DNA from: an uncultured Bacteroidota bacterium
Lineage (GTDB): Bacteria > Bacteroidota > Bacteroidia > Flavobacteriales > Flavobacteriaceae
DNA: 34,387 nucleotides
Assembly: GCA_902560065.1 (NCBI GenBank)
Contig: CACEKG010000013.1
Coordinates: forward strand, 1-34,387
Direction of reading: 5' to 3'
The position numbers were made by a program, and so were the translations under genes. This document shows, one piece after another, positions 8,691-17,810 of the stretch. Positions within the stretch are counted from its first letter, which is position 1; each line of letters begins with the position of its first letter. The notes beneath the pieces are model-generated. The model saw nothing but the letters and a program-made list of their open reading frames with translations, made no database searches and was not told the origin of the DNA.

Positions 8691-9716
8691 TTAACTTTTA
8701 TTTAAGGCCCATTCATTAATCCAGTTAGAAGCAACTTTTACCCAATCATCTCTAAAATTTAGGCATGGAATCAAGTATAATTCTTTTCCACCATTATTTT
8801 TAAAATCTTCAGAGGCTTCCATTCCTATTTCTTCCAATGTTTCCAAACAATCTGAAACAAAAGCAGGAGTTACAACTGCAATATTTTTATATCCTTTATT
8901 AGCAAATTCAAGAATTGTTTTATCAGTATATGGTTTTAACCAAGAACCAATTATAGTAACTCTGGATTGATAAGAAGTTGAAAAACTTCCTTTCTTAAGA
9001 CCTAATTTTTTTGCAACATTTAATGTTGTAATTTCACATTGATGTCTATAACAATATTTGTGAGCTTCCGATTTTTTAAAACAACATATTCCATTCATTT
9101 TACAATGAGATCCAGTTATATCAGATTTTAAAATATGTCTGTTTGGAATACCATGATATGAGAATAATAAATGATCTATTTTTTTATCTTTTAAAAAATC
9201 TCTTATTGAATTTGACAAAACCTCTATGTAATCAGGTTTATTATAAAATGAAGGAAAATGGAATAAATTCATTTTCGGAAAAAATTTATTTTTTATATCT
9301 TCTGTTTCAACCGTTATTGTCTCAACAGATGACATTGCGAATTGTGGATAAAGAGGAATTACTAAAACTTCTTTAACCCCTTTATTTTTTAGGTCTTGAA
9401 GTCCAGATTTAATTGAAGGATTTCCATATCTCATAGAAAGCGAAACAGGAACTTTACTTTTTTTTTGAATTTTACTGTGAAATTTTTTCGATATGACTAT
9501 TAAAGGAGAGCCTTCTTTCCACCAAATTCTTTTATATGCATTAGATGATTTTTTAGGTCTAATATTTAAAATTAATCCTTTAACCAAAATCTTCCTGATC
9601 AACTTTGGAAAATCAATTACTCTTTCATCCATTAAAAATTGATCAAGATACTTTCTTACATCATTAACTTCAGTGCTATTTGGGGAACCCAAATTAACAA
9701 TTAAAACTCCTTTCAT
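8691..9716 (-). CDS. hemH: Ferrochelatase
   Basis: A 341-residue ferrochelatase, which inserts Fe2+ into protoporphyrin IX (or coproporphyrin in other lineages) as the last step of heme synthesis. The start MKGVLIVNLGSPNS is the classic family opening. The catalytic histidine is H188 in FSYHGIPNRH, and the acidic partner segment SDCLETLEEIGME lies at about 288-300. An internal segment has five cysteines in 23 residues (C205, C211, C212, C222, C227), ending C-Y-R-H-Q-C; comparable internal cysteine segments ligate a [2Fe-2S] cluster in some bacterial ferrochelatases. With HemE, HemF and HemJ present the protoporphyrin route is implied. The gene follows the AraC regulator after 8 bp and precedes the MATE gene. 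Confidence 0.95.
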   Translation of the reverse strand: MKGVLIVNLGSPNSTEVNDVRKYLDQFLMDERVIDFPKLIRKILVKGLILNIRPKKSSNAYKRIWWKEGSPLIVISKKFHSKIQKKSKVPVSLSMRYGNPSIKSGLQDLKNKGVKEVLVIPLYPQFAMSSVETITVETEDIKNKFFPKMNLFHFPSFYNKPDYIEVLSNSIRDFLKDKKIDHLLFSYHGIPNRHILKSDITGSHCKMNGICCFKKSEAHKYCYRHQCEITTLNVAKKLGLKKGSFSTSYQSRVTIIGSWLKPYTDKTILEFANKGYKNIAVVTPAFVSDCLETLEEIGMEASEDFKNNGGKELYLIPCLNFRDDWVKVASNWINEWALNKS

Positions 9717-10609: not shown

Positions 10610-10630
10610 TACAGAAATTAAAAAATTAAA

Positions 10631-10646
10631 ATTTCTTTCAAAGATA
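10631..10646. repeat. First copy of ATTTCTTTnAAAGA in the araC-hemA divergent region
   Basis: ATTTCTTTCAAAGATA contains the 14-base element ATTTCTTTnAAAGA, which recurs 48 bp away. Its core TCTTT-C-AAAGA is an inverted repeat. It overlaps the candidate -7 box of the araC gene on the minus strand, so a protein bound here could repress that promoter. Confidence 0.45.
10639..10646 (-). promoter_or_regulatory. Candidate -7 box (TATCTTTG) for the araC-hemH-MATE operon
   Basis: On the minus strand this reads TATCTTTG, a full match to TAnnTTTG, ending 29 bases before the araC ATG. No -33 TTG is found at the expected distance, so the assignment rests on the -7 element and on position. Confidence 0.4.
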
Positions 10647-10678
10647 AGCTATTTAGAACGATTATTAATTAGATGTTT

Positions 10679-10695
10679 ATTTCTTTAAAAGAAAT
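10679..10695. repeat. Second copy: 17-bp palindrome in the araC-hemA divergent region
   Basis: ATTTCTTTAAAAGAAAT is a palindrome with perfect 8-bp arms around a central A, and shares ATTTCTTTnAAAGA with the element 48 bp to its left. It lies about 40-60 bp upstream of the candidate hemA -7 box, where activators commonly bind. It is a candidate operator for the adjacent AraC regulator or for another regulator such as Fur. AT-rich palindromes also arise by chance in this genome. Confidence 0.45.
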
Positions 10696-10736
10696 TAATA
10701 TTACTTTTTGCGTTATTTTTTAATTCCACACTACTT

Positions 10737-10744
10737 TATTTTTG
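10737..10744 (+). promoter_or_regulatory. Candidate -7 box (TATTTTTG) for the hemACDEF operon
   Basis: TATTTTTG fits TAnnTTTG and ends 21 bases before the TTG start codon of hemA. A TTTG at 10707-10710 is 26 bp upstream, longer than the usual 17-23 bp spacing, so the -33 element is doubtful. Confidence 0.45.
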
Positions 10745-10765
10745 TGAAAAATTAAACTTACTGGT

Positions 10766-11989
10766 TTGGATAATAGTAAAAATTGTCAAGTAATTGGTAT
10801 TAGTTATAAAAACGCAGATCTAGATACTAGGGGTCTTTTTAGCTTAAGTGACCTTCAATTACATTCTCTTTTTTTAGAAGCTAAAGAAAAAAAATTCGAT
10901 GAACTTATGATTATAAATACATGTAATCGAACGGAAATTTTTGGATGGAATAATAACACCGATGATTTTATAAACCTATTATGTAAACACTCTAATGGAG
11001 ATATTAAAACTTTTGAAAAATATGGGTATATAATAACTGGGAAAAAAGCTATAAAACATTTATTCAGAGTTGGGACAGGACTGGACAGTCAAATTTTAGG
11101 GGATTTTGAAATAATAGGTCAAATTAAACAAAGTTTAAATCGCTCCAAAAGATTAAATTTAATTAGTGGAAGACTTGAAAGACTTGTTAATTCTGTTATT
11201 CATGCAAGTAAGAAAATTAAAAATCAAACAAAATTATCTAGCGGGGCAACATCTGTTGCTTATGCCTCTGTTCAATATATAATTAAAAATGTAAAAAATA
11301 TTTCTAAGAAAAAGATTGTTCTTTTTGGTATTGGAAAAATTGGAAGAAACACATGTGAAAATCTTTTAAAACATACAAAAAACGAACACATAGTATTAAT
11401 AAATAGGACTCAAGAAAAAGCTGAAAAAATTGCCTTAAAATTTCCTGTTTTAGTTAAGCCATATGGAGAATTAACTAGTGAGATTAGCAATGCTGATGTT
11501 TTAATTGTTGCAACAAGTAGTTCAAATCCAACAATAACAAAAGATTTGATTTTCAACTCAAAAAATCTTTTAATTCTTGATCTCTCTATTCCAAGAAATG
11601 TAGAAACTCAGATTAATGAATTAAATAATATAAAAGTTGTTCACTTAGATGAATTATCTCAGATAACCGATTCTACTATTGAAAAAAGAAAAAAACATAT
11701 TCCAAAAGCCGAATTAATAATTAATTCAAATATTAAAGACTATATTTTATGGCTTTCACAAAGAAAATTTTCTCCAACTTTAAAATCCTTTAAAGAACAA
11801 GTTACACAATTAAAAAAAGAAAAATTAAACTGTCCTCATAACAATTTTTTTAGCGATAAAGCTGAAGAGATAGCTGAGAAAATTACTGGCCAAGTTGCTT
11901 CTTTTTTAAAAGAAAATCCAAATAAAGTTCCTGAAACAATTGACCTAATTAATAAATTTTTAAAAGTTGAATCCAATAAAAATGAATAA
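10766..11989 (+). CDS. hemA: Glutamyl-tRNA reductase
   Basis: A 407-residue enzyme that reduces glutamyl-tRNA(Glu) with NADPH to glutamate-1-semialdehyde, the committed step of the C5 heme route. The nucleophile C53 lies in IINTCNRTEIFG, the canonical HemA motif, followed by the G-x-x-S-Q-I-L-G-D-x-E-I-x-G-Q-I-K segment. The NADPH domain has F-G-I-G-K-I-G near 187-193, and the C-terminus is the dimerisation helix region. The start must be a TTG at 10766: an in-frame TGA at 10745-10747 blocks upstream extension, the next in-frame ATG is 48 codons in and would remove catalytic sequence, and family members have about ten residues before the I-G-I-S-Y-K block. It heads the operon; hemC overlaps its end by 8 bp. 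Confidence 0.95.
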   Translation: MDNSKNCQVIGISYKNADLDTRGLFSLSDLQLHSLFLEAKEKKFDELMIINTCNRTEIFGWNNNTDDFINLLCKHSNGDIKTFEKYGYIITGKKAIKHLFRVGTGLDSQILGDFEIIGQIKQSLNRSKRLNLISGRLERLVNSVIHASKKIKNQTKLSSGATSVAYASVQYIIKNVKNISKKKIVLFGIGKIGRNTCENLLKHTKNEHIVLINRTQEKAEKIALKFPVLVKPYGELTSEISNADVLIVATSSSNPTITKDLIFNSKNLLILDLSIPRNVETQINELNNIKVVHLDELSQITDSTIEKRKKHIPKAELIINSNIKDYILWLSQRKFSPTLKSFKEQVTQLKKEKLNCPHNNFFSDKAEEIAEKITGQVASFLKENPNKVPETIDLINKFLKVESNKNE

Positions 11990-12899
11990 AATTTTAAGAA
12001 TTGGAACTAGAGATAGTGAACTAGCAATTTGTCAAGCAAAGAAAGTTCAAAAAGCTATAAAAAAACTTGGCAAGAATTCAGAATTAAAACTTATAAAAAG
12101 CAGTGGAGATAAAAACTTAATACAACCAATTTACAAAATGGGAATTCAAGGAGTCTTTACAAAAGCTCTGGATACTGCTTTAATTAATAACAAGATAGAT
12201 ATTGCTGTTCATAGTTTAAAAGATATTCCAACTAAAATTCCTAAAGAACTTTCAATTTCGGCAATTTTAAAAAGAGAATCTCCTTATGACAGCTTGGTTT
12301 TCTCAAAAAAATTTAAAAAATTTTCAGATAAATCAATAATTGGAACCGGAAGTTTGAGAAGAAAAGCTCAATGGTTGAGAAAACATCCTTATCACAAAAC
12401 GGAAAACCTTAGAGGAAATATTTTAACAAGAATTAAAAAACTTGACAACTCTTTTTGGGATGGTGCTATATTTTCTGAAGCTGGAATTAATAGGCTAAAA
12501 ATAAAAGATATTAAATATCAGGTTTTAGACTGGATGATTCCCTCCCCAGGTCAGGGAGTAATTGCTATATGCTCAAAAAAAGAACAATTAAAATTGACAA
12601 AATTTTTAAATAATCTTAATTGTGAAAAAACAGAGATGTGTGTAAAAATTGAGAGAAATTTTCTAAATATTTTAGAAGGTGGTTGTAAAGCTCCAATTGC
12701 TGCTTTTGCAAAAATTGAGAATAAAAAAATTATGTTCAAATCAGGTCTATTTTCCCTAGATGGTTCAATTGCATATATTGAAAATCAAGAAATTGATCTT
12801 GATAATTCAAAAGATTGTGGAATAAATGCGGCAAAAATTATATTGAAAAAAGGTGGAAAAAAATTAATTGAAAAAATAAAAAATGAATTAGAAAAATGA
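11982..12899 (+). CDS. hemC: Porphobilinogen deaminase (hydroxymethylbilane synthase)
   Basis: A 305-residue enzyme that joins four porphobilinogen units into hydroxymethylbilane. The dipyrromethane cofactor would be attached to C235 in LEGGCKAPIAAF, and the catalytic aspartate is D81 in HSLKDIPT. The arginine-rich substrate-binding segment G-T-G-S-L-R-R-K-A-Q is at 121-130, and PSPGQGVIAI at about 188-196. I place the start at the ATG at 11982 (MNKILRIGTRDSE), which gives the normal N-terminus; a TTG five codons upstream would add MNPIK-like sequence deeper inside hemA and is not needed. The gene overlaps hemA by 8 bp and hemD by 4 bp, suggesting translational coupling. Confidence 0.95.
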   Translation: MNKILRIGTRDSELAICQAKKVQKAIKKLGKNSELKLIKSSGDKNLIQPIYKMGIQGVFTKALDTALINNKIDIAVHSLKDIPTKIPKELSISAILKRESPYDSLVFSKKFKKFSDKSIIGTGSLRRKAQWLRKHPYHKTENLRGNILTRIKKLDNSFWDGAIFSEAGINRLKIKDIKYQVLDWMIPSPGQGVIAICSKKEQLKLTKFLNNLNCEKTEMCVKIERNFLNILEGGCKAPIAAFAKIENKKIMFKSGLFSLDGSIAYIENQEIDLDNSKDCGINAAKIILKKGGKKLIEKIKNELEK

Positions 12900-13564
12900 A
12901 ATTACTTTCTACAAAAATTGTTTCAAAGAAATTTAAAGATTTATTGATTAAAAATAATTATCAAATAGAAGAAAAATCATTCATAAAAATATTACCCTTT
13001 AAATCAAAATCTAATATTTCTATTTTAGAAAATATAATTTTTACTAGTAAAAATGCCGTTAAAATAATTTTAAGAAATTCTATAATCAAAAATAACCTAG
13101 CAAATAAAAATATATACTGTGTTGGTAAATCTACTGCAGAATTAGTAAAAAAAAATAACCTTAATCTAATCAAATCAGAAGATAATTCTAAAAACCTTTC
13201 TAAATTTATTTTAGCTAATTTCAAAAACTCCAAGAATTCATTTACATATTTCTCAGGAAAAAAAAGAATTAGAGAGTTAGAAAACAACTTGAAAAAAAAT
13301 AATATTAATATAATTGTTCATGAAGTTTATGATACTCTTCTAACTCCAAAAAAAATTAATGATTTATATGATGGTGTCATTTTCTATAGTCCCTCTGCGG
13401 TAAAAAGTTTTTTTAAAGGAAATAATTCTCTAAATAACACTCATGGCTTTTGTATTGGAAATACTACTGCAAAAGAATTATATAATTATTCAAATCGTTT
13501 TTCAGTTGCTAAATCAAATTCAGAAGAAAACATGTTAGAATCTATAAATAAATATTTTAAATAA
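12896..13564 (+). CDS. hemD: Uroporphyrinogen-III synthase
   Basis: A 222-residue protein placed exactly where HemD is expected, starting in an ATGA overlap with the hemC stop. HemD closes hydroxymethylbilane with inversion of ring D to give uroporphyrinogen III. The family is poorly conserved; what can be seen is the pattern [10 protein letters not shown] near residue 45-53, Y-C-V-G-K-S-T-A at about 73-80, F-T-Y-F-S-G-K in the middle, a Y-D-T motif near 143, and [11 protein letters not shown] plus C-I-G-N-T-T-A toward the end, which follow the two-lobed HemD fold. It is shorter than most (about 220-260) and very rich in Asn, Lys and Ile. Context raises the confidence more than the sequence does. 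Confidence 0.88.
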
Positions 13565-13574
13565 TTATTCTGCA

Positions 13575-14597
13575 ATGAAAAATGATCTTTTTTTAAGAGC
13601 TTTAAAAGGTGAGAAAGTAGATAGACCTCCTGTATGGATGATGAGACAAGCTGGAAGATATTTGCCAGATTTTATGAAAATTAAAAGAAAATATGATTTT
13701 TTTACTAGATGCCAAACGCCTGAACTTGCTACAGAAATAACTTTAATGCCCATAAATCAAGTTGGTCCTGATGCAGCTATTATATTCAGTGATATTCTTG
13801 TTGTTTTACAAGCAATGGGTATAAAAGTTGAAATGAAAGATAACATTGGTCCATGGATAAATTCTCCAATTAGAAAAAATGACGATATTAAAAAAGTTCG
13901 AGTTCCAGAAGTTAAAGCAGAATTAGATTATGTCTTCAAGGCAATAAAAATGTCAAAAAAAGAATTAAACGAAAATGTTCCTTTAATAGGTTTTGCTGGA
14001 TCTCCATGGACTCTATTGTGTTATGCTGTTCAAGGTAGCGGATCAAAAGATTTCAATTTAGCTAAGGAGTTTTGTTTTTCCCAATCAGAATATTCAAAAA
14101 TTTTACTGCAGAAAATTACTGAAACAACAATTTCCTATTTAAAAGAACAAGTAAACTCTGGAGTAAATGCTATTCAAATTTTTGATTCCTGGGGTGGCTT
14201 ACTCTCTCCAATAGATTATGAAGTTTTTTCTTGGAAATATATAGATCAAATAATTAAGGAATTAAGTCCATTAATTCCTGTCATTGTTTTTGGAAAAGGA
14301 TGTTGGTTTCACCTAAATGAAATGAGCAAATCTAAAGTTTCAGCTATAGGTATTGATTGGACTTGTTCCGCAAGAAACGCTCGATATTTAACTGGAGGAA
14401 AAATTACTCTTCAAGGAAACCTTGACCCTTCAAAACTATTATCTCCAATATATGAAATTAAAAAATCTGTTAAAAATATGATTGATGAGTTTGGCAAAGA
14501 TAATTACATAGTCAATTTGGGGCATGGAATACTGCCTAATACCCCTGTTGATAATGCAAAAGCATTTATTGATTCAGTCAAAGAATATAATTCTTAA
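13575..14597 (+). CDS. hemE: Uroporphyrinogen decarboxylase
   Basis: A 340-residue enzyme that removes the four acetate carboxyls of uroporphyrinogen III to give coproporphyrinogen III. The N-terminal signature [15 protein letters not shown] is at about 17-31, with the conserved arginines that bind substrate carboxylates. The [12 protein letters not shown] segment supplies the catalytic aspartate, and the second family signature G-F-A-G-S-P-W-T-L follows. The C-terminus shows [14 protein letters not shown]. Length is normal. It lies 10 bp after hemD, and its stop shares one base with the hemF ATG (TAATG), so the two are translationally coupled. Confidence 0.96.
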
Positions 14598-15502
14598 TGA
14601 AAGAAAAATTTTATACATACATTAAAAGTCTACAAAACAAAATTACAGATAGAATTGAGGAAATTGACCAGTTAGAGAAATTTAAAGAAGATATTTGGAA
14701 AAGAAAAGAAGGTGGAGGGGGAAAAACTAGAATTTTACAGAATGGTAAAGTCTTTGAAAAAGCAGGGGTTAATATTTCTGCAGTAAATGGTAAGTTACCT
14801 GAAAGTATTATGAATTATCTTAAAGTAAATGAGTCAAGATTTTTTGCATGTGGTTTAAGTGTAGTTATTCATCCATTAAATCCTATGATTCCAACTTGTC
14901 ATGCTAATTGGCGATATTTTGAATTATATAATGAAAAATCTGAAATAATTGATCAATGGTTTGGAGGAGGTCAAGATCTAACTCCATACTATCTGTATGA
15001 AGAAGATGCAGTTCATTTTCATAAAGTTTGTAAAAACTCATGTGATAAATTTGGAAAAAATTTATATAATGATTTTAAAAAAAAATGTGACAATTATTTT
15101 TGGAATTCTCATCGAAATGAGGCGAGAGGAATAGGTGGGATATTTTTTGATTACTTAAGAGCCAATTCAAAAAAAAGTATACAAGATTGGCACAAATTTA
15201 CTGTTGAAGTTGGTAATAATTTTATTGAATCTTATTTTCCTATAGTTGAAAAGAGAAAAAATATACCTTACAATAAAAAACAAAAAAATTGGCAAGAAAT
15301 TAGAAGAGGTCGTTATGTAGAATTTAATTTAATTCATGACAAAGGAACAATGTTTGGCCTAAAGACTAATGGGAGAACTGAAAGTATTTTAATGAGTTTG
15401 CCTCCTATGGTCAAATGGTTTTATAAATATCAAATAAAACCAAGATCAAAAGAAGAAACATTAATTAATGTTTTAAAAAAACCAAGGAAATGGATAAATT
15501 AA
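14597..15502 (+). CDS. hemF: Oxygen-dependent coproporphyrinogen-III oxidase
   Basis: A 301-residue cytoplasmic enzyme that uses O2 to convert two propionates of coproporphyrinogen III to vinyl groups, giving protoporphyrinogen IX. Motifs are P-M-I-P-T-C-H-A-N-W-R-Y-F-E, W-F-G-G-G-Q-D-L-T-P-Y-Y, G-I-G-G-I-F-F-D-Y-L, and near the end Y-V-E-F-N-L-I-H-D-K-G-T followed by N-G-R-T-E-S-I-L-M-S-L-P-P, all diagnostic for HemF. Being the aerobic isozyme, it points to an oxic lifestyle; no radical-SAM HemN is in the window. The start overlaps the hemE stop by one base. The antiporter gene follows after 40 bp. Confidence 0.96.
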   Translation: MKEKFYTYIKSLQNKITDRIEEIDQLEKFKEDIWKRKEGGGGKTRILQNGKVFEKAGVNISAVNGKLPESIMNYLKVNESRFFACGLSVVIHPLNPMIPTCHANWRYFELYNEKSEIIDQWFGGGQDLTPYYLYEEDAVHFHKVCKNSCDKFGKNLYNDFKKKCDNYFWNSHRNEARGIGGIFFDYLRANSKKSIQDWHKFTVEVGNNFIESYFPIVEKRKNIPYNKKQKNWQEIRRGRYVEFNLIHDKGTMFGLKTNGRTESILMSLPPMVKWFYKYQIKPRSKEETLINVLKKPRKWIN

Positions 15503-16838: not shown

Positions 16839-17810
16839 ATGTTTCCAATAAATAGAAATAGAAGATTAAGAAGCTCAAAAGTTATAAGAGATCTAGTGTC
16901 TGAAAATAAAATTAATTTAACTGATTTAATTGTTCCATTATTTATAAAAGATGGTAAAAACATAAAGGAGGAAATTGAATCTATGCCTAGTTATTATAGA
17001 ATGAGCTTAGATGTTATTGAAAAAGAAGTGAAATTTTTATATGAAATTGGCTTAAAATCTGTTCTTCTTTTTGTTAAAGTTTCTGAAAACTTAAAAGATA
17101 ATAAAGGCTTAGAGGCCATAAATCCAAACGGTTTAATGCAAAGAGCTATTAAGACAATTAAAAATTCTGTGCCTGAAATGGTAGTAATTACTGATGTTGC
17201 TTTAGATCCCTACTCTATTTATGGTCATGATGGAATTGTTAAGAACAATAAAATATTAAATGACTCAACAAATGATGTGCTTTCAAAAATGGCTCTTTCG
17301 CATGCTAAGTCAGGAGCTGATATAATTGCTCCAAGTGATATGATGGACGGAAGAATAAAAAAAATTAGAGAAACACTTGAATTAAATAAATTCCATGAAA
17401 CTGCAATCATGAGCTATTCTATCAAATATGCTTCAAATTTTTATGGTCCCTTTAGAGATGCATTAAACTCAAAACCTAATTTTGGTGATAAAAAAACTTA
17501 TCAAATGGATTTTAGAAATAGAGATGAGGCTTTTTTAGAAGTTAAAAATGACATAGAAGAAGGAGCTGATATAATAATGATTAAACCTGGATTACCCTAT
17601 TTAGATATCATAAGAGATATAAAAGAAAATTTTTCTTGTCCAATAGCAGTTTATCAAGTAAGTGGAGAATATTCAATGTTAAAAGCTGCTGCAGAAAAAG
17701 GATGGCTTGATGAAAAAAAAGTAATTATCGAACAACTTACTGCTTTTAAAAGAGCTGGAGCTTCCATGATTGTAAGTTACCATTCAATTGATATTGCTAA
17801 AAGTTTATAG
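16839..17810 (+). CDS. hemB: Delta-aminolevulinic acid dehydratase (porphobilinogen synthase), non-zinc active-site type
   Basis: A 323-residue enzyme that condenses two aminolevulinate molecules to porphobilinogen. The Schiff-base lysines are K196 (MSYSIKYASNFYGPF) and K249 (IIMIKPGLPYLD). The metal segment reads D-V-A-L-D-P-Y-S-I-Y-G-H-D-G: the three cysteines that hold catalytic zinc in the E. coli and human enzymes are replaced by A121, D123 and D131, the aspartate-type site of enzymes that do not need the zinc. The gene is 9 bp after the antiporter and ends 6 bp from the convergent FAD oxidase gene, so it closes the heme operon. Confidence 0.96.
   Translation: MFPINRNRRLRSSKVIRDLVSENKINLTDLIVPLFIKDGKNIKEEIESMPSYYRMSLDVIEKEVKFLYEIGLKSVLLFVKVSENLKDNKGLEAINPNGLMQRAIKTIKNSVPEMVVITDVALDPYSIYGHDGIVKNNKILNDSTNDVLSKMALSHAKSGADIIAPSDMMDGRIKKIRETLELNKFHETAIMSYSIKYASNFYGPFRDALNSKPNFGDKKTYQMDFRNRDEAFLEVKNDIEEGADIIMIKPGLPYLDIIRDIKENFSCPIAVYQVSGEYSMLKAAAEKGWLDEKKVIIEQLTAFKRAGASMIVSYHSIDIAKSL

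Follow-up and report, generated by a model that had tools for sequence, protein, structure and literature searches.

In the haem cluster of a member of the Flavobacteriaceae, the spacer between araC and hemA carries an element, hereafter E3, whose position, recurrence and tie to the adjoining AraC-family protein and to haem genes are apparent from comparison of the locus among relatives, and it is probable that this protein binds E3 to set the haem supply, either by synthesis or by import. The locus lies in the window, i.e. the whole stretch of 34,387 nt analysed here (contig CACEKG010000013.1, assembly GCA_902560065.1), whose own genome, labelled G000, comprises 1.3 Mb and is 66% complete. 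The sequence-only reading had described the 156-bp spacer (10610–10765) as the only long regulatory gap of the cluster, and in the ORF list it is the longest intergenic gap from hemH (8691) to hemB (17810). Its role as a conserved control region is borne out by the recurrence there of E3 and, in most genera, of a second element, E1, and AraC very probably governs haem genes. Two units that diverge from the spacer, araC-hemH and hemA-hemCDEF, would be under its control. The features are listed in Table 1. A Na+/H+ exchanger gene (PF00999, 15543–16829) is located between hemF and hemB within the cluster, the hemA ORF begins with a TTG start at 10766 in the ORF list, and the hemA and hemC ORFs share 23 bp (11967–11989).

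Table 1 Features of the haem cluster and its control region, in window coordinates
Feature	Position	Strand	Basis or remark
hemH, ferrochelatase, immediately 3′ of araC	8691..9716	-	PF00762 E 7.1e-91
araC, AraC-family regulator, 294 aa	9725..10609	-	PF12833 E 5.8e-20, PF00165 E 1.9e-12; two-domain AraC-type model
Copy 1, ATTTCTTTCAAAGA	10631..10644	+	near-palindrome of the sequence-only reading; without conservation
Putative araC -7 box TATCTTTG (plus strand CAAAGATA)	10639..10646	-	fits TAnnTTTG
E1, degenerate TTTAGAnnnnnTCTAAA as TTTAGAACGATTATTAA	10652..10668	.	2 mismatches; 58 bp from E3
Copy 2, ATTTCTTTAAAAGAAAT	10679..10695	+	palindrome of the sequence-only reading; without conservation; right arm shares 6 bp with E3
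E3, candidate AraC operator at hemA	10690..10723	+	direct repeat, 21-bp spacing; matrix score 21.4
hemA -7 box TATTTTTG	10737..10744	+	27 bp from G of GCGTTA
hemA, glutamyl-tRNA reductase	10766..11989	+	PF05201 E 5.9e-38
hemC, hemD, hemE, hemF	11967..15502	+	PF01379, PF02602, PF01208, PF01218
hemB, ALA dehydratase	16839..17810	+	PF00490 E 1.8e-140

AraC was sought in 99 relatives and hemA in 397 genomes of the family. The first set consists of 90 loci taken from the matches, 86 of which, from 82 distinct genomes, have both araC and hemA, and the second of named loci from the best 80 of 477 relatives, in each of which araC and hemA are divergent. As the sets have some species in common, the number of spacers (162) is not a number of species. 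One record titled as a Deltaproteobacteria MAG (L233, SMWS01000158.1) contains an araC|hemA locus with E1 and E3 almost identical to those of the flavobacterial loci L232 and L235 and is probably mislabelled or a mixed bin.

E3 follows a pattern near CGATACTAA..GTTC.TTTAGCGTTATTTTT and consists of two half-sites forming a direct repeat with a 21-bp spacing, a trait of AraC/XylS operators beside a promoter, although in the window only the proximal half, GCGTTATTTTTT, is intact (from 10710), while the distal half is worn and has 6 bp in common with copy 2 of the palindromes. In 74 of the 82 genomes, a distance of 27 bp separates the G of GCGTTA from the downstream hemA -7 box of the type TAnnTTTG, the consensus given for such boxes in an excerpt of a published study (PMC9723704). 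When G000 and its close relative G001 are left out of the matrix, the window E3 scores 21.4 as against 0.7 for the next best place, being the single position above 5 out of 68,708 in the window, and none of the 431,202 positions in 67 control loci (some overlapping) exceeds 8. Scores above 10 were obtained in 75/80 named loci with a matrix that included the window, some species being present in both sets. The nearest relatives (14 of the loci L173–L187) possess an E3 variant (e.g. AGCTATTTAAAAACTTTTTAGCGTTATTTTT) with scores from -5 to 20. AraC is expected to occupy the two half-sites, the proximal one beside the hemA promoter, and from there it would activate hemA.

As E3 abuts the promoter, it might instead be bound by another regulator or be a special -33 region, with araC a mere neighbour. 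Searching 18 genomes with the strict half-site pattern gave 18 zero-mismatch matches, found in 17 of the genomes (G000 having none) and all situated at araC|hemA, so E3 is not a general promoter part. The presence of E3 also follows that of araC. In genus g24, the hemA locus of G024 lacks both araC and E3 (-13.5), whereas that of G291 has araC and an E3 scoring 41.8; G036 has no AraC match at E<=1e-3 and no E3 (-13.6), and nine of ten more loci, nearly all from other families and without araC adjoining hemA, score from -21.3 to 3.6. In contrast, the hemA locus of G292 has an E3-like site (15.6) without araC, which means that such a site can persist in the absence of an adjoining araC; the related G026 carries an AraC homologue elsewhere in its genome. 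Both genomes of genus g56 retain AraC and have no E3. Taken with the occurrence of E3 beside araC at haem uptake genes (see below), binding by another regulator seems unlikely. At one mismatch, the half-site gave 35 strand-matches in the 18 genomes, five of which, being copies of a further element (E4) in the spacer, were removed; the remaining 30 matches elsewhere compare with 21 for the control, and for this reason no wider E3 regulon is claimed.

The sequence-only reading had proposed a different operator, namely the two related near-palindromes listed as copies 1 and 2. Both are present, 48 bp apart from start to start, copy 2 being a 17-bp palindrome with perfect 8-bp arms and a 1-nt centre and copy 1 overlapping the araC -7 box. 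Among 2000 dinucleotide-preserving shuffles of the spacer, palindrome arms of at least 8 occurred in 125, a 14-mer pair with at most one mismatch in 120, and both together in 11, a figure not corrected for the choice of pattern in hindsight. The window as a whole contains eight perfect palindromes with arms of at least 8, and exact ATTTCTTTnAAAGA gives four strand-matches at three places in G000, two of them in the araC-hemA spacer, as against four for the reversed pattern. Judging by these counts, the letters are real and their clustering is mildly unusual, with an overall frequency at the level of chance. Their proposed part as operator of the haem cluster did not survive the comparison with relatives: exact copies exist in 2/162 araC|hemA spacers and copies with at most one mismatch in 3/162, and among the 15 named relatives of highest rank (L173–L187, 58–63% AraC identity) the 14-mer was not found at up to one mismatch and was found at two mismatches in one (L184). 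The exact copies belong to the window and to G001, which are about 99% identical outside N positions, so that G001 was ruled out as a test of conservation; the protein identity of 77% listed for it is due to Ns. Both outcomes that the sequence-only reading had named as refuting it, lack of conservation in relatives and a chance frequency in the genome, were thus observed. It is therefore highly improbable that the ATTTCTTTnAAAGA palindromes serve the regulator as an operator newly arisen in the lineage of the window, considering also the overlap of copy 1 with a -7 box and of copy 2 with E3.

The regulator is a member of the AraC/XylS family by its domains, with the C-terminal double HTH recognized by both Pfam models given in Table 1. 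Pfam detected nothing beyond the HTH, and there was no NCBIfam match above the cut-off among the 25 matches listed. The predicted structure (pLDDT 82.7, pTM 0.54) has a strand-rich N-terminal domain (strands 12–100) and a C-terminal HTH domain, and the model together with Foldseek indicates an N-terminal barrel domain of the ligand-binding or dimerisation type. The best Foldseek hits were ToxT and Rns, followed at a lower rank by the AraC dimerisation domain and BgaR; since the complete chains superpose poorly (TM about 0.3, rmsd about 21), the domains match and the pose does not. All of 176 orthologue sequences (some species being counted twice) have H105 and C181, H47 is conserved in 95%, and P182 is invariant in the 30 sequences of alignment A2, while in a low-identity alignment covering 14 of 15 paralogues H105 was found in none, C181 in one and P182 in two. 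Cys-Pro pairs are known to bind haem, as in Irr, according to the portion of a 2024 review at hand (PMC11442138). As a guess, the ligand of the regulator may be haem, bound via H105 and C181-P182.

The association of E3 with haem extends to genomes that appear to have lost the synthesis pathway. Among the 397 genomes, 20 hemA-less ones were named and checked, with 21 more outside the sample, and AraC was retained at E<=1e-30 in 10 of the 20 as well as in the two g56 genomes with weak hemA matches. None of the ten AraC-keeping hemA-less genomes has hemB (PF00490), and neither do G155, G185 and G255, which are hemA-less and have no AraC, whereas the two g56 genomes and 5/5 controls possess it. 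The ten drafts are 73–99% complete, and because hemA and hemB belong to one cluster that can be lost with one contig, their joint absence does not amount to two independent facts. In seven of the ten, there is an E3 scoring from 18.0 to 34.0 near araC, and in five (G049, G186, G145, G102 and G260, of which G145 only is more than 90% complete) it is located between araC and a gene coding for a TonB-dependent receptor, followed by a HmuY-family gene (PF14064, E-values of 2.3e-12, 5.8e-12, 1.1e-9, 3.2e-10 and 2.6e-13, respectively). A TAnnTTTG box lies 27 bp from E3 in G049 and G102, with near-matches recognized by eye in G186, G145 and G260. Three of the five share an ORF adjoining araC on its other side, and the arrangement may therefore go back to a single event. 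As to the other genomes, E3 precedes a gene for a protein without a Pfam match and a serpin gene in G253, and lies upstream of araC with no divergent gene nearby in G167; no E3 was detected near araC in G236 (best score 2.3), where araC adjoins a hemC-hemD fusion, or in G225 (2.7), and the contig of G009 stops at araC. In genus g56 (L278 = G056, L287 = G314), hemB and hemH are present and hemA matches are weak, and an exact E1 is situated directly upstream of an operon of solute-binding protein, permease and ATPase genes, read as being of the ferric-iron type.

Where the pathway is present, AraC would drive hemA, and in the apparent auxotrophs AraC and E3 would act at the HmuR/HmuY-type uptake genes, with low haem as the trigger and the protein answering to haem or to the demand for it. 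A more specific version, which we put forward only tentatively, is that a dedicated AraC-family haem sensor (H105, Cys181-Pro182) runs the haem supply of Flavobacteriaceae via one operator, while the ICE-like E1, served by another regulator, links in a respiratory cytochrome gene. Such a sensor would direct haem synthesis where the pathway exists and haem import where it has been lost; lineages losing the pathway would accordingly retain both sensor and operator and exchange the output.

It is also possible, if short of probable, that the AraC-E3 pair is real and responds not to haem but to iron, to a porphyrin precursor, to oxygen or to a ferric siderophore, the last being what the PchR-like character proposed in the sequence-only reading would imply. 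AraC-family proteins have very diverse ligands, which counts in favour of such a signal. The parts of the F. psychrophilum literature at hand report that its haem synthesis genes rise under oxygen limitation (PMC9723704) and that its HmuY-type hfp genes respond to iron (PMC9331221). On the other hand, haem is the common denominator of the synthesis and uptake genes at which the pair is found, and H105 and the Cys-Pro pair are specific to the orthologues; iron would still be compatible with both observations.

E1, a palindrome of the form TTTAGAnnnnnTCTAAA, was found exactly in 59/82 and with at most one mismatch in 73/82 araC|hemA spacers, at least one of the latter matches (L067) lying merely inside E3. 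With G000 and G001 excluded from the matrix, the degenerate copy in the window scores 16.5 (10647–10673) and the second-best place that does not overlap it 5.1, whereas in the nearest loci E1 scores at most 1 in 13 of the 14 scored of L173–L187, being kept in L174 only (22). A box of the same type, TATTTAGAAnnnT[A/C]TAAATTA, occurs before a multihaem cytochrome gene (L289–L318, L314 being from the genome of the window). This gene, with the Pfam domains Cytochrom_C and Cytochrome_C7, was found in 30/30 chosen genomes and is read as actA of alternative complex III; E1 with at most one mismatch is located upstream of it in 29 of them, including G000, the sole miss being a fragment match in G024. 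E1 is thus a candidate box common to haem synthesis and respiration. The strict form is not enriched genome-wide (28 forward sites in 12 genomes, 11 of them in the araC|hemA spacer, as against 44 for the control), and the looser TATTTAGAnnnnnTMTAAA is enriched, with 60 strand-matches as against 13 in 14 genomes, palindromic sites counting twice. Each of the 60 f1 genomes searched has one to five Fur-family matches, and several E1-bearing genomes (e.g. G033, G057 and G035) have one Fur-family protein.

Further E1 sites include an exact palindrome in G000 (C9:38786-38806, L322) just upstream of a lycopene-cyclase-like gene, the name being a reading, and sites before nqrA-like genes (G117, G160), a PepSY-like gene (G280) and an Mrp-type NTPase gene (G041), among which names Pfam backs that of the Mrp-type only. 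Another inverted repeat, TATGACATTTATCATA, which we take to resemble a Crp/Fnr-like site, was noticed in the araC|hemA spacers of relatives (e.g. L005, L007, L014) and occurs with at most two mismatches in 16/82 genomes; it is not found in the window.

A third element, E4, is an E3-like half-site near the start of araC, scoring above 8 in 149/162 spacers and in 0/162 shuffled ones. E1 and E3 both exceed 10 in 135/162 spacers, where the distance between them is 120–124 bp in 111, 117 bp in one, 111–115 bp in 15, 101 bp in two and 56–58 bp in six (the window, G001, G034, G004, G048 and G017), and in 107 of the 111 spacers with a distance of 120–124 bp, E4 is 165–170 bp from E3. In most relatives, E4 and the intervening E1 suggest a loop or a second input; the window has a degenerate E1 and no recognisable E4 (best score -2.7). 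The steps in the E1-E3 spacing resemble helical turns. Helical phasing was rejected as proof of looping, being significant when counted per genome and lost when every distance is entered a single time (the value is then reached by 1742 and 1548 out of 20,000 null draws). In G034, G003, G004 and G048, E1 is 124–134 bp from the nearest listed CAAAnnTA box and 56–58 bp from E3, which hints that E1 may serve hemA rather than araC.

Control of haem synthesis appears to be little described in this phylum, and a regulator with its operator occurring at haem synthesis as well as haem import genes would offer a handle on the haem economy of a widespread bacterial family and would help to infer haem auxotrophy from sequence. 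With one protein and one 34-bp site the pair is directly testable, and E1 provides a second lead as a box common to haem synthesis and the multihaem cytochrome gene. No report of an AraC-type haem regulator was found in the open-access literature, which does not prove its absence: 'AraC' is not mentioned in the consulted part of the F. psychrophilum hfp paper (PMC9331221), nor are 'AraC', 'Bacteroid' or 'Flavobacteri' in that of the 2024 review of bacterial haem regulators (PMC11442138).

As for known systems, the uptake genes resemble HmuR/HmuY of Porphyromonas and HfpR/HfpY of F. psychrophilum, which, as far as the extract at hand goes, likewise consist of a TonB receptor and a HmuY-family lipoprotein (PMC9331221). 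Unlike those systems, they are divergent from araC with E3 in between. E1 presumably resembles the ICE consensus TTTAGAAnnnTTCTAAA of the alphaproteobacterial Irr, a member of the Fur family. Both systems have haem synthesis as a target, and the Cys-Pro pair of the regulator recalls the haem-binding Cys-Pro motif attributed to Irr in the same portion of the review (PMC11442138), the differences being that Irr belongs to another phylum and that no Irr was identified in the genomes studied here.

The AraC protein of E. coli uses the direct-repeat half-sites araI1-I2, about 21 bp apart at the araBAD promoter, and the distant araO2. The system described here differs from it in acting on haem genes instead of sugar use, in having the palindrome E1 between the sites and in the lack of a recognisable E4 in the window, and shares with it the divergent regulator gene, the promoter-side half-sites with their spacing of about 21 bp and the AraC-type domains, while the E4 of the relatives, near the start of araC and mostly 165–169 bp from E3, might be a counterpart of araO2.
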